In this document: piece by piece, positions 29,569-37,193 of the stretch
How positions within the stretch are numbered: the first letter of the stretch is position 1
Layout of the letters: each line of letters begins with the position of its first letter
Assembly (NCBI GenBank): GCA_029262315.1
Contig: JAJCZP010000152.1
Coordinates: 1-37,763 of the forward strand
Direction: 5' to 3'
DNA: 37,763 bases
DNA from: Deltaproteobacteria bacterium
GTDB taxonomy: Bacteria > Desulfobacterota > Binatia > UTPRO1
The notes under the pieces: model-generated
What the model saw: the letters and a program-made list of their open reading frames with translations, nothing else
Told to the model about the DNA's origin: nothing
The model's database searches: none
Position numbers and translations under genes: made by a program

Positions 29569-29715
29569 TGGCGCGCCAGGGCGTCCTCGAGCTTGTACCG
29601 CCATACTAGCCTGTGCTAGACGCGAGTCGTGATGGTTGTCCTGTGGAGGCCAACCACGCCAGCGGGTGAGCCGTGCACCCGGAACGATTCGAGCGACGAC
29701 CCAGGAGGAGAATCT

Positions 29716-32559
29716 ATGGCAACCCCGAGCACGTTCCCGCGGGTGGAGACCCGGATCCGCGTTTCGATCTTGGCGACGATGGTGAGTGTGCTCATGCTCA
29801 CCCCCGCGCTGGTTACTGCGCATCCCGAGGGGGGACTGCCGCAGACCAAGAGCCAGCAGAAGTGCACCAACAAAGTAAACAGCAGCTGGTCGAAGGTCTC
29901 CAAGACGACCCGCAAGAGCGTGCAGAAGTGTCTCAATAACTACGCAAAGGGCGCGCCACTCACGAGCTTTCCGAGCATCACGACGCTCGAGGAGTGCATC
30001 ATCTTTGATGCCGGCGGCAAGATCGCCAAGACGAAGGACAAGACCAGCGACACCTTCGACAAGAGCTGTGGCGGACCGGCGCGCGATGAGATCGACAGCG
30101 AGGGCTTTCCGGTTTTTCCCGACTATGGGGTGAGCACTGTGCCCACGGTCAACGCGGCCGGCCAGCAGATGGAGATCGACCTGATTCACGACCTCTTCGG
30201 CGCCGATCTCGATGCCGCGGGCGTGCTAGCACTGAGCAGCGGTCCGGGAGACTCCGCCGACGCGGCGAAGTGCCAGAAGAGCGTCGTGAAGTCGATGGGC
30301 AAGTGCATCGCGGAGCGCCAGAAGCAGTTTGCGAAGTGCGCGAAGGCCCGCCTCAAGACTGACGAAATCGCTGTACGCATTTACGATCCTGACGATCTTG
30401 CCCTCTGCTTCGACGGCATGGACCCGACCAAGATCATGAAGAAGTGCGACGGCATCCCAGGGCAGGGGATTGGCAAGACGCTGCAGAAGCAGTGCGCCGA
30501 CAAGGTCACGGACCGCACGCTCTCGGCGATGTTCCCCGAGTGCGGTACCGACGACGTGGAGACGTTGGCGACCTGCTTGGGGCAGCGGGCTGCCTGCCGA
30601 CTGTGCCTGTCGGCGAACGCGGCGGACGACGCCACGCGTGATTGCGATTTGTTCGACGACAACGACACCGACAACGAGAGCTGCCTGCCGTGTGCCGGCG
30701 CCGTTGCCGGATTCGACTCGACGTATGACGGCATCCAGACCCTCATCTTCGACTCGCCGACGTACGGTTGCTCGAGTGCGCTCTGCCACGGCGCGGCAAG
30801 CCAGGGTGGACTCAACCTGACCGACGATCCGAACACGCCCGTGATCGAGTCGCATGCCAACCTGGTCAATGTTCCGGGGGCCAATGCCAGCCCGCCGACC
30901 GATCGCGTCGAGCCCGGTGAGCCGGTCTTGAGCTTCCTCTACAACAAGCTCGCGGCCGGAGTGGATCCGAACCACCCGACCGGCGGTGGATCCTCGATGC
31001 CGAGCGGCGGCGCGACGGCCCTGACGCCGGAGCACCTCGAGGCGATCGAGAAGTGGATCCGCGGTGGCGCGCCCGAAGACCTCACGGTCGAGGGGACGGC
31101 CGTACTCCTGGGGAGTTGTCTCCCCGAGGCTGACCCGCTGACGATTCCTGTTCCCGATCCCCCACTAGCAGGGACCGGCCTCCAGTTCACGCAAACGGCA
31201 TGGGATCTCCCTTCGCAGTTCGAGGACGAGATCTGCATGGCAACGCTCTACGATCTCACCGGAACCGGCCTCGTGCCGGCGGCGGCGCTGGTGACCTGTC
31301 CGGACGAGTTCCTGCCGGGACGGTGCACCGGTGGTGCGAACGACCCGGACAATGATGCGTGTACGGTCTTGGCGGACTGTCCCGATCAGGGCGGCGGCAC
31401 GGACTGTGATCTTACCCTCGGCATGGTGAACAACCCGACGGGGACGTGCTTTGCGTATAAGAAGCAGATCCTGGCGCAGGATCCGCAGTCGCACCACAGC
31501 ATCATGCACATCTATACCGGCAGGTTCGATACGGACGATGCCGGGTGGGGCGGATTCACGTACAAGTTCCAGGATCCGAACGATCCACTGAATGGCCTAG
31601 CGTGTGATCCCACCGATTTCGACGCCACCGGTCAGAACGACGGCTGTAGTGGCTTCCCCCAGAGTGCGGCCGCGTGTCTCGGCTACGGGCCTCCCGATTA
31701 CACGTTCGGCGGGGGCTTGGGCTTCGGTGTCGGTGGCACGGCCCCGATGATCACGCGCTCACAGGAGCCGTTCTACTCCCAGGAGTATCCGGCGGGCGTT
31801 TACAGTATCCTGCCGATGGGCGGCCTCATCGTGTGGAACTCGCACGCGTTCAATCTGACCCAGACGGATTCAACGCTGAGCGCGTATCTCAACCTCGACT
31901 TCGCGCTTGGCGCCGGCGAGCAGCTGGACGTGGTCGAGTCGATCTTCGACGCCGCCTCGATCTTCTGGCAGCCGCTCGGCAATCCAGACAACACCGTACC
32001 CCCGTTTACCACCCGGGAGTTCTGCCGGACGTACACGATCCCTCCGGATGCCGAGCTGTTCGAGTTGGGCTCGCATACGCACGAGACCGGCGTCCTCTGG
32101 CGGACCTGGGCACCCCCGAACACGCCGTGCGTCCCGGGTGCTGCCGCGTGCGTACCGCGCATCGACGTGCCCCTGTACCTCAGTACAGACTACGCGGATC
32201 CGCTCCAGCTCCTCTTCGATCCTCCGATCTCGCATTCGGGCGGGTTGTCGGTGGCTGCTCGCACCTACCTCTTCTGTTCGCAGTACGACAACGGTTCCAC
32301 GCCGGCCAGTCCGGGCGTCAAGCGGCGCTCGACCTCGCCGAGCCCGCCGCTGGGGCTGCCGGTTGGCGGGCCGTGTTCCATTGGCGAAACGCAATGCATC
32401 GGTGGCCCGAACCACGGGACGCTCTGCTCCGGTATTCAGTCCATCTGTGACAGCTCACCCGGGGCAGGCGACGGTGATTGCGACGCGTGCCCGATGCGGG
32501 GCGGTCTGACGACGAAGGATGAGATGTTCATCCTGCTCGGGAACTACTTCATCCCGTAG
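29716..32559 (+). CDS. Exported copper type II monooxygenase-like protein with cytochrome c-like domain
   Basis: A 947-residue exported protein. ATG 29716 is chosen because AGGAGGAG lies just upstream and a signal peptide follows (about 13-37). Residues about 45-310 are Lys/Cys-rich helices (QQKCTNKVNSSWSKVSK, KTKDKTSDTFDKSCGG, KCQKSVVKSMGKC). Residues about 335-455 resemble a cytochrome c domain of the planctomycete type with CSSALCH (C352, C357, H358), a CX4CH heme motif, ending EKWIRGGAPED. The rest matches the PHM/DBH copper monooxygenase fold: HHSIMH (H593, H594), NSHAF (H710), SHTHETG (H787, H789) and GGLTTKDEM (Met937) as copper ligands. A Cys-rich insert lies before the last motif. 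It could hydroxylate a substrate with electrons delivered by its own heme; the substrate is unknown. A strong terminator follows. Confidence 0.85.
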   Translation: MATPSTFPRVETRIRVSILATMVSVLMLTPALVTAHPEGGLPQTKSQQKCTNKVNSSWSKVSKTTRKSVQKCLNNYAKGAPLTSFPSITTLEECIIFDAGGKIAKTKDKTSDTFDKSCGGPARDEIDSEGFPVFPDYGVSTVPTVNAAGQQMEIDLIHDLFGADLDAAGVLALSSGPGDSADAAKCQKSVVKSMGKCIAERQKQFAKCAKARLKTDEIAVRIYDPDDLALCFDGMDPTKIMKKCDGIPGQGIGKTLQKQCADKVTDRTLSAMFPECGTDDVETLATCLGQRAACRLCLSANAADDATRDCDLFDDNDTDNESCLPCAGAVAGFDSTYDGIQTLIFDSPTYGCSSALCHGAASQGGLNLTDDPNTPVIESHANLVNVPGANASPPTDRVEPGEPVLSFLYNKLAAGVDPNHPTGGGSSMPSGGATALTPEHLEAIEKWIRGGAPEDLTVEGTAVLLGSCLPEADPLTIPVPDPPLAGTGLQFTQTAWDLPSQFEDEICMATLYDLTGTGLVPAAALVTCPDEFLPGRCTGGANDPDNDACTVLADCPDQGGGTDCDLTLGMVNNPTGTCFAYKKQILAQDPQSHHSIMHIYTGRFDTDDAGWGGFTYKFQDPNDPLNGLACDPTDFDATGQNDGCSGFPQSAAACLGYGPPDYTFGGGLGFGVGGTAPMITRSQEPFYSQEYPAGVYSILPMGGLIVWNSHAFNLTQTDSTLSAYLNLDFALGAGEQLDVVESIFDAASIFWQPLGNPDNTVPPFTTREFCRTYTIPPDAELFELGSHTHETGVLWRTWAPPNTPCVPGAAACVPRIDVPLYLSTDYADPLQLLFDPPISHSGGLSVAARTYLFCSQYDNGSTPASPGVKRRSTSPSPPLGLPVGGPCSIGETQCIGGPNHGTLCSGIQSICDSSPGAGDGDCDACPMRGGLTTKDEMFILLGNYFIP

Positions 32560-33497: not shown

Positions 33498-36400
33498 ATG
33501 ACCGCTCTCACTTGGTATCGAGGGGCCACGCTCGCATCGATGGCCGCGGTGATCCTGATCGGCACTGCGACTGTCGTGTCGGGACAGTCGAACTTCGTCA
33601 CGTTCGAGACCGGCCAGGTACGCCCGCTCGCGCTTTCGCCGAACGGCGCCCGGTTGTTCGCGCTCAACACCCCGGACAATCGCTTGGAAATCTTCGACGT
33701 AGCGGGTGGCAGCATTACTCGCGTCGGCTCGGTGCCGGTCGGCCTCGAGCCGGTCGCCGTGGCGGCGCGCTCCAATACCGAAGTGTGGGTAGTGAATCAT
33801 CTCTCGGACAGTGTCAGCATTGTCGATGTGACGACGCCGGCGACCGCCCGCGTCGTTCGCACCCTGCTCGTCGGCGACGAGCCACGCGATATCGTGTTTG
33901 GCGGCAGCGGCTTCGACCGCGCGTTCATCACGACCGCGCACCGCGGACAGAATACGCCGCTGCACGCGACCATCGAGACCGAACTCATTACCGACGGCAT
34001 CGGACGCGCGGATGTCTGGGTGTTCGACGCCAGTAGTCTCGGCGCATCGCTCGGGGGCGACGAGTTGACGATCATCCAGCTGTTCACGGATACGCCGCGG
34101 GCGCTCGCGGTCACCGCCGACGGCTCGACCGTATACGCCGCGGGGTTTCATACCGGCAACCAGACCACGGCCATCAACGATGGTGTGATTCCGGATGGCG
34201 GTGAGGGGGCGGGAGGTCTCCCCGAGCCGAATACGAACCACGACGCCATCACCGGTCCGGAGACCGGTCTGATCGTGCAGTTCGATGGAGTGGGATGGAA
34301 AGACGAGCTCGACCGCGACTGGTCAGCGCAGGTGAAGTTCGATCTTCCCGACGAAGACGTGTTTGGGATCGACGCCGACGCCAATCCACCCGTGCAGATT
34401 GCTGGCGCGACGGGGGTGTTCGCCACCGTCGGAACGATTGTGATGAACATGATCACCAACCCGGTGACCGACAAGGTCTACGTGTCCAACCTCGAAGCGT
34501 TGAACCGCGTCCGGTTCGAGGGCCCGGGGACGTTCGCGGCGCCGTTCAAGCCGATTGGCGAGCCCGCAACCGTGCAGGGGCACATTGCCGAGAGCCGCAT
34601 CACCATTCTGGACGGCTCCACGGTGACGCCGCGGCACCTGAACAAGCACATCGATTATAGCACGTGTTGTACCGCGCTCCCCAACACTGAGAATGACGAT
34701 AGCATTGGCTTTCCAGTCGACATGGCCATCTCCAGCGATGGCGATACGCTCTACGTGGCGGCCTTCGGCTCGAGCGAGATCGCCGTCTACGATACGGGGG
34801 AGCTCGAGAGCGACGCCTTCGTTCCGGATGCTGCCGATCAGATCGCCGTCTCCGGCGGCGGTCCGTCGGGTGTCGTGCTCGATGAGACGAACGCGCAGCT
34901 CTACGTCCTGACGCGCTTCGACAATGCCGTGAAGGTGATCAGCACCGCGACGGGTGCCGAGCTCGACGCCGACCCGCTGCACAATCCAGAGCCCGCCCAG
35001 GTCGTGGATGGCCGGCGGTTCCTGTACGACACCTCGTTTACCTCGGCGCACGGCGACTCGGCATGCGCGAGCTGTCACATCTTCGGCGACATGGACAATC
35101 TCGCCTGGGATCTCGGGGATCCCGACGGAGACGTCGTCAACAATCCAGGTCCGTTTGCCGTTGGTCCGTTCATCGATCCGGACTTCCACCCGATGAAGGG
35201 TCCGATGACGACCCAGAGCCTCCGCGGCCTCGCGAACCAAGGCCCAATGCACTGGCGCGGTGATCGGACTGGCGGGAACGCCGAGGCCAGCGCGCAGCCG
35301 GATGCGGGGAGCTTCGACGAGGTCGCGGCTTTCACGGCGTTCAACCCCGCCTTCGAAGGGTTGATCGGGCGCAGCGTGGCGCTGACCGCGGGGGAGATGC
35401 AGGCCTTCACGGACTTCATCCTGCACGTCACCTATCCGCCGAACCCCATTCGGAATCTCGACAACTCGTTCACGACCCAACAAGCAGCCGCCGATACGTT
35501 CTTCTTTGGCTCGATCTCGGATTCGCTCGAGAACTGCGACGGGTGTCATACGACGACCCGCACTGGCAACGCGGGCTTCGGCGTGTCGAAGCCCGGTTTC
35601 TTCGGCACTGACGGGCAGTCCAGTTTCGAGGGCGAGGTGCAGATCTTCAAGGTCCCGCACCTTCGAAATCAGTACCAAAAGGTCGGTATGTTCGGGACGC
35701 CCTCCGTCCCGTTCGTGAATGATGGTGACAACGGACACAAGGGGGATCAGATCCGGGGCTTTGGCTTCTTGCACGACGGATCGCTGGACACCGTCCTTCG
35801 ATTTCTGAACGGATTGGTCTTCAACCAGACCGGTGCCAATCCGACCGGTATTCCCGCGGGCGTGCCCGGCAATCCTACGCGCCGCGAGCTCGAGTCGTTG
35901 ATGCTGGCCTTCGACAGCAATCTCTTTCCGATCGTTGGGCAGCAGATCACGCGGACCGACTCCAACGGCGCGACCGTCGATGCGCGCATCGACCTCATGA
36001 TCGCGCGCGCCAACGCTGGCGAGTGCGATGTCGTCGTGAAAGGGATCGTGGGCGGGATCGCGCGTGGCTCCGTGTACGTGGGCGGCGGGCTTTTCCAGCC
36101 CGACCGTGCCGCCGACGGGCCGCTCACGACCGCCCAGACCAAGGCGCTCAGCAACACGCCCGGGCAGGAGGGCACCTGGATGGCCGTGCCGCCTGGCAGC
36201 GGGACCAGGATCGGCGTGGATCGTGACGGGGACGGTTTCTTCGATCTCGACGAAGTCGATGCCGGCACCGACCCCGAGGATCCGCTCAGCTTCCCCGATC
36301 TCTGCTCCGGCGATCCGGCCTGCGTGAAATGTCAGCGCGTGCTCACCAAGGAGGCCATCAAGTTCGCCAAGACCCGCTCGAAGGCGCTGGTGCGGTGCGA

Positions 36401-37193
36401 GCGCCGGAAGATCAAGGGACAACTGTCGTCGGGCGTCGACTGCGACGTCGACCCGCTAACGGCCCAGAAGGTTCAGAAGGCCGGCGACAAGATGGCCAGC
36501 AAGATCGACCGGGCGTGTGGCGGCGTCGACGACGTGTGCAACGGAGATGTCTCCGAATCGAGCCCGGCCGTGCTCGGCTGGGGCGGCGCGTGTCCGAATC
36601 TCGCGAACGGCTCGTGCGACAACCTCCTCAGCGATTGTGGGGACATCGCCGACTGCGTGCAGTGCATCCACACGGCGGCGACGTCGCAGGCGAACGATCT
36701 CTACTACGCGAACATGTTCATCCCACCGCTCGACGTGTCGCTCCGCAAGTGTCAGGAGGCGATCGGTCGTGAAGGGCAGAAGTTTCAGGAGAAGAAGGCG
36801 AAGCTCATCCAGAAGTGCTGGGACAGCCGCCTGAAGGGGAAACACGCGGATACGTGTCCCGACGCGACCGCCCCCGCGGGCAGCCAGGCGCGGAAGGCGT
36901 CCGAGAACATCGCCAAGGCGGAAGCCAAGGCCGAGCAGAAAATCTGCAAGGCCTGCGGTGGCGGTGACAAACTCTGTGGCGGCGTCGACGACTTCGACCC
37001 GGCGACCGAGATCGGTTTCCAGGCCACCTGCGACGCCGTGACGATTCCGGGTGGTGCGAGTTGCGCCGGCGCTGTGACGACGCTTCAGGATCTGGTCGAT
37101 TGTGCGTTGTGTGTGACCGAGTACGAAGTCGATTGCATGGATCGTTCGACCGTCCAGGGATTTGCAGCGTATCCGGCGGAGTGCAATCCGTAG
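33498..37193 (+). CDS. Exported beta-propeller/di-heme cytochrome/Cys-rich protein
   Basis: A 1231-residue exported protein; GGAGGAG precedes the ATG and a signal peptide spans about residues 1-29. Residues about 35-510 are YVTN-type beta-propeller repeats (PLALSPNGARLFALN, PVAVAARSNTEVWVVNH, MAISSDGDTLYVAAFGS). Next comes a cytochrome c peroxidase/MauG-like region with two heme sites, CASCH (C523, C526, H527) and CDGCH (C680, C683, H684), and MTTQSLRGLANQGPMHWRGD between them. A calcium-type loop DRDGDGFFDLDEVDAGTDPED starts at Asp908. The last 295 residues are Lys/Cys-rich helices (CVKCQRVLTKEAIKFAK, KMASKIDRACGG, KAEQKICKACGGGDK). A role as an outer-surface or periplasmic electron-transfer protein or peroxidase is inferred. 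It diverges from a TetR gene, and the DUF427 gene follows after 51 bases. Confidence 0.85.
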   Translation: MTALTWYRGATLASMAAVILIGTATVVSGQSNFVTFETGQVRPLALSPNGARLFALNTPDNRLEIFDVAGGSITRVGSVPVGLEPVAVAARSNTEVWVVNHLSDSVSIVDVTTPATARVVRTLLVGDEPRDIVFGGSGFDRAFITTAHRGQNTPLHATIETELITDGIGRADVWVFDASSLGASLGGDELTIIQLFTDTPRALAVTADGSTVYAAGFHTGNQTTAINDGVIPDGGEGAGGLPEPNTNHDAITGPETGLIVQFDGVGWKDELDRDWSAQVKFDLPDEDVFGIDADANPPVQIAGATGVFATVGTIVMNMITNPVTDKVYVSNLEALNRVRFEGPGTFAAPFKPIGEPATVQGHIAESRITILDGSTVTPRHLNKHIDYSTCCTALPNTENDDSIGFPVDMAISSDGDTLYVAAFGSSEIAVYDTGELESDAFVPDAADQIAVSGGGPSGVVLDETNAQLYVLTRFDNAVKVISTATGAELDADPLHNPEPAQVVDGRRFLYDTSFTSAHGDSACASCHIFGDMDNLAWDLGDPDGDVVNNPGPFAVGPFIDPDFHPMKGPMTTQSLRGLANQGPMHWRGDRTGGNAEASAQPDAGSFDEVAAFTAFNPAFEGLIGRSVALTAGEMQAFTDFILHVTYPPNPIRNLDNSFTTQQAAADTFFFGSISDSLENCDGCHTTTRTGNAGFGVSKPGFFGTDGQSSFEGEVQIFKVPHLRNQYQKVGMFGTPSVPFVNDGDNGHKGDQIRGFGFLHDGSLDTVLRFLNGLVFNQTGANPTGIPAGVPGNPTRRELESLMLAFDSNLFPIVGQQITRTDSNGATVDARIDLMIARANAGECDVVVKGIVGGIARGSVYVGGGLFQPDRAADGPLTTAQTKALSNTPGQEGTWMAVPPGSGTRIGVDRDGDGFFDLDEVDAGTDPEDPLSFPDLCSGDPACVKCQRVLTKEAIKFAKTRSKALVRCERRKIKGQLSSGVDCDVDPLTAQKVQKAGDKMASKIDRACGGVDDVCNGDVSESSPAVLGWGGACPNLANGSCDNLLSDCGDIADCVQCIHTAATSQANDLYYANMFIPPLDVSLRKCQEAIGREGQKFQEKKAKLIQKCWDSRLKGKHADTCPDATAPAGSQARKASENIAKAEAKAEQKICKACGGGDKLCGGVDDFDPATEIGFQATCDAVTIPGGASCAGAVTTLQDLVDCALCVTEYEVDCMDRSTVQGFAAYPAECNP

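Follow-up and report, generated by a model that had tools for sequence, protein, structure and literature searches.

The gene at 29716-32559 of the window (by which we mean the whole 37,763-nucleotide stretch of DNA that was analysed) encodes a predicted exported protein of 947 amino acids, in which a c-type cytochrome domain precedes a copper core homologous to that of PHM and DBH. The same heme-copper fusion, with all heme and copper ligands kept, is shared by at least 73 genes in 25 genomes of related uncultured bacteria. From these sequences we infer that the protein is probably a secreted, PHM/DBH-like two-copper monooxygenase that carries its own electron relay, a class-I cytochrome c. 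The best-known examples of PHM and DBH are those of animals, connected with amidated peptide hormones and noradrenaline synthesis, and the supply of electrons to their two distant coppers is a classic question. A natural heme fusion offers a spectroscopic handle on this step, while a heme-fed fusion would show that PHM/DBH chemistry need not depend on ascorbate. Our search of the open-access literature found no published account of a fusion between heme c and copper monooxygenase domains and, since all scanned family members fall short of the curated cut-offs of Pfam and NCBIfam, the genes are likely annotated as hypothetical proteins.

The protein and its family

The features of the gene, all on the forward strand, are as follows.

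29703-29708, +: ribosome binding site AGGAGG, read directly, 7 nt upstream of the ATG at 29716
29716-32559, +: gene for the 947-residue heme c / copper monooxygenase fusion, predicted exported (sequence and relatives)
29716-29820, +: type I signal peptide, residues 1-35 (LTPALVTA|H), predicted from hydrophobicity in the sequence by a simple rule rather than by a dedicated program
29821-29823, +: His36, probable mature N-terminal residue by predicted cleavage, with His also there in 17 relatives
29833-30687, +: Cys-rich N-terminal module, about residues 40-324, with related modules elsewhere in the genome
30709-31095, +: cytochrome c domain, about residues 332-460 (profile comparison)
30769-30789, +: heme attachment motif C352-SSAL-C357-H358 (CX4CH), conserved in 73/73
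30997-30999, +: Met428, probable sixth heme ligand in a Met-Pro motif (73/73; alignment with a FoxE segment)
31159-32556, +: PHM/DBH-like two-copper core, about residues 482-947 (profile homology)
31303-31422, +: Cys-rich insert of about 40 residues, lacking in the two closest relatives (family alignment A1)
31492-31497, +: His593-His594, equivalent to PHM His107-His108 (CuH; alignment and 73/73 conservation)
31843-31845, +: His710, equivalent to PHM His172 (CuH; alignment and 73/73 conservation)
32074-32082, +: His787-x-His789, equivalent to PHM His242/His244 (CuM; alignment and 73/73 conservation)
32374-32490, +: family-wide Cys-rich insert upstream of the Met ligand, with six Cys (C887-C925)
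32524-32526, +: Met937, in GGLTTKDEMFILLGNYF, probably equivalent to PHM Met314 (CuM; invariance and motif match)

The reading frame and the numbering of C352/C357/H358, H593/H594, H710, H787/H789 and M937 in the original prediction proved exact, although Met428, the signal peptide with His36 and the Cys-rich module of about 280 residues ahead of the cytochrome domain had not been mentioned there. Taken alone, the window protein gives no match above threshold in Pfam (0 families), NCBIfam or the PDB, so that the earlier call rested on motifs and relatives were needed to assess it. These were sought in 58 genomes, namely the genome of the window and further members of its class. Matches occurred in 35 of them, one genome containing as many as 41 matching pieces, and some genomes matched in the cytochrome part only. 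The resulting family set, drawn from 25 genomes of a single uncultured class, comprises 73 non-redundant genes, among them locus L049, whose source is an unclassified 'Deltaproteobacteria' MAG with the tree label Myxococcota; from this one relative we take the class, and with it the window, to belong to that phylum. Paralogues are numerous per genome. When 198 genomes of the phylum were sampled, full-length matches were confined to the window's class, four genomes outside it yielding one fragment each, three of the four in the cytochrome part, and the viral contigs searched held no relatives. The original prediction had proposed looking for the same domain order in other genomes, and it is this order that the 73 genes display.

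Across the family C352, C357, H358, M428, H593, H594, H710, H787 and H789 are identical in every gene, M937 is present in 72 of the 73, the remaining one having a gap, and the Cys positions checked are kept in 71-73. Such invariance in 73 relatives from 25 genomes argues that the ligand pattern is not due to chance.

The N-termini are far more diverse. Export signals, assigned with a simple rule and visual inspection, occur throughout, and on the same basis 34 of the 73 members are predicted lipoproteins; in others a type I signal stands either straight before the cytochrome domain or separated from it by an extra module. Within this last group a His directly follows the predicted cleavage site in 18 proteins, including that of the window, and is absent from 5, the sites being placed by a simple rule rather than a dedicated program. 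These 18 His residues stand over different kinds of module, none belongs to a lipoprotein, and on the tree of relatives the N-terminal His label needs four changes; the His-bearing rows are related and hence not independent. Other ORFs in the retrieved loci show His after a site of this type in 3 of 117 cases. In LPMOs and PmoB the copper site begins with the His at the mature N-terminus, and the recurrence of such a His here makes it a candidate for a further copper site, which we regard as only a lead. The Cys-rich module itself (29833-30687) recurs at about 15 further places in the genome (loci L004-L017), where its copies are fused at either end to partners that, judged by eye, seem unrelated, such as a CHRD-like protein (L005) and one containing a cytochrome (L016); the window copy bears no Pfam name.

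The copper core and its relation to PHM and DBH

The link to the animal enzymes is provided by ten proteins of the same class retrieved with Pfam Cu2_monoox_C (alignment A3), which were compared with A1, the 25-row family alignment serving as family profile. With hhalign the two align at a probability of 99.9 and E 2.7e-33, bringing HH, H and HxH into register; the copper core alone gives E 1.7e-13 and the cytochrome part alone E 8e-26, as against 0.0096-0.71 for the controls (one reversed and eight column-shuffled templates). A3 in turn finds PHM (E 9.4e-12) and DBH (E 3.1e-7) in the PDB. The family profile searched directly against PHM gives no match, and hhalign to the single PHM sequence only E 0.15, so that the homology with PHM and DBH needs the bridging Cu2_monoox_C proteins. 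Likewise, the window protein does not reach the curated cut-off of PF03712, the best family member scoring 11.9 bits against 23.

In the joint alignment PHM H107, H108, H172, H242, H244 and C81 coincide with invariant family residues. The predicted CuH set of three His (HH + H) is thus represented by H593, H594 and H710, and of the CuM set, HxH plus Met, H787 and H789 are placed by alignment and M937 by motif alone. The Met is the weakest of the ligand assignments, because a family-wide Cys-rich insert defeats the automatic alignments, none of which places Met937 on PHM Met314. The best-scoring site in PHM for the motif GG-x-T-T-x-D-E-M is nevertheless exactly Met314, with 176 of 20,000 shuffles scoring at least as high. 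That insert had been called unusual, a description at odds with its presence in the whole family. The spacings are longer than those of PHM, with 116 residues rather than 64 from the second His of HH to the third His, and 148 rather than 70 from HxH to Met. AlphaFold models of the cytochrome domain with the core and of the cytochrome domain alone, for which the inputs were the window protein and one relative only, reached pLDDT 26.5 and 35.8 and were unusable. In nine of the ten A3 proteins (L050, L052, L055, L056, L059, L060, L065, L066 and L067) the CuM Met is apparently His, NEHCNLF standing where PHM has DEMCNLY; L064 retains the Met.

The profile homology, the mapping of the ligands and their invariance across 73 genes together lend strong support to a two-part protein, a c-type heme domain followed by a PHM/DBH-type copper core, and bear out the copper ligand set that had been read from the window sequence. 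Given that the solved structures nearest to the bridging proteins are those of PHM, the core could in principle be a strict peptidylglycine hydroxylase devoted to peptide amidation. PHM Arg240 lies two residues before H242 and belongs to the peptide-carboxylate site; it aligns here with Gly785, and most relatives have Ser, Thr, Gly or Asn. Its absence, and the lack of a visible lyase partner among the neighbouring genes, render this function highly improbable.

The cytochrome domain and a proposed supply of electrons

The domain preceding the core bears the marks of a class-I cytochrome c, namely Met-Pro at 428-429, W447 and a C-terminal W-I-x-x-G-A. The heme motif Cys...Cys-His, the distal Met and the C-terminal helix of the class are all present, and covalent heme attachment at C352 and C357 is predicted. 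Its wider affinities, to Cytochrome_CBB3, PSCyt1 and FoxE, are each weak. The best PDB match of the cytochrome profile is FoxE, at E 0.0023, the MP...W-I-x-x-G-A segments being aligned; PSCyt1 matches 9 of 23 members (best E 0.0021, in a scan without bit scores) and Cytochrome_CBB3 matches 7, while the sole PSCyt1 bit score seen, that of L064, is 16 against a cut-off of 22, and the window's own domain has no PSCyt1 match. Of the 'planctomycete-type cytochrome' with CSSALCH in the original prediction, the heme domain and its motif therefore stand, whereas the planctomycete label is weak. The CX4CH pattern has been reported for tetraheme cytochrome c3 (PMC10454114). Matches to CTI (fatty acid cis/trans isomerase) were rejected, since in the four members with positions they cover only 27-31 residues within the cytochrome domain, at E 0.065-0.36.

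In the mechanism that we favour, the heme, held by His358 and Met428, would be reduced one electron at a time by a donor in the periplasm or at the cell surface and would pass the electrons to CuH (H593, H594 and H710), whereupon CuM (H787, H789 and M937) would bind O2 and hydroxylate a C-H bond of the substrate. A role of the heme in place of ascorbate, with electrons supplied by a respiratory or extracellular source, is plausible because the protein is predicted to be exported, about half of its relatives are predicted lipoproteins and cytochrome c assembly genes are found in the window's genome.

Alternatively, the core might be a true two-copper monooxygenase whose coppers are reduced by a small molecule, the cytochrome serving instead to dock to other cytochromes, to limit wasteful turnover or to carry electrons away. 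Four Cu2_monoox_C relatives (L056, L060, L065 and L066) are without the cytochrome domain, so that the core can exist alone, and DBH has an unrelated N-terminal DOMON domain and uses ascorbate (PMC4846438). However, the cytochrome domain adjoins the core and shows, across the 73 genes, the same invariance in its four heme residues as is seen in the copper ligands, whereas the regions further towards the N-terminus vary freely; we therefore consider such an indirect role rather unlikely. A second possibility is that the PHM fold has been turned to copper handling, copper sensing or metal oxidation at the cell surface with no monooxygenation at all, as the recurrent His36, the weak resemblance to FoxE and the many paralogues per genome could suggest. 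This we judge improbable, as the six catalytic ligands are kept, the CuM Met at the O2-binding site among them, and so exact a set would not be expected for storage or binding.

The neighbourhoods of 22 loci (L049 and L082 being the same contig) contain no conserved neighbour gene, and none accordingly names the donor or the substrate; acyl-CoA dehydrogenases and LLM-type oxidoreductases recur near a few loci and were judged to be background. In the window itself, 33498-37193 encodes an exported beta-propeller protein of 1231 residues with weak similarity to the hydrazine synthase beta subunit; it has two CXXCH motifs, and its C-terminal part, rich in Cys, resembles the Cys-rich module by eye.

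Returning to the heme-relay monooxygenase, we would tentatively extend it to a large, self-contained family of heme c / dicopper monooxygenases, which may use electrons of respiratory or extracellular origin in place of ascorbate, may have multiplied within an uncultured myxococcotal class, with many copies per genome, and, in part of the family, may possess an extra copper site at the mature N-terminal His. In this full form the proposal is possible, but we hold it with some doubt.

Comparison with known systems

With PHM (PDB 1opm, 8dsn) the family shares the five aligned His ligands, the Met in a DEM motif and Cys81; it differs in the added cytochrome c domain and Cys-rich inserts and in lacking Arg240, and the homology is seen through bridging sequences only. 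The fungal LPMO and cellobiose dehydrogenase systems have a cytochrome b, an unrelated copper fold and one copper; what they have in common with the present family is the idea of a heme domain that supplies a secreted copper monooxygenase (PMC7078924). DBH (PDB 4zel) likewise has an extra N-terminal domain before its copper core, and its ligands (His262/263/333 and His412/414/Met487; PMC4846438) correspond to the CuH and CuM sets given here; its extra domain is DOMON rather than cytochrome c, and it is driven by ascorbate. The same layout is found in four bridging proteins that exceed the Pfam cut-off (L052, L055, L059 and L064), in which a CX4CH cytochrome domain lies immediately N-terminal to the copper core, so that the order is seen also outside the 73-gene family; unlike the window family, these four are without Cys-rich inserts, and nine of the ten A3 proteins carry an EHC motif, with His for the CuM Met.
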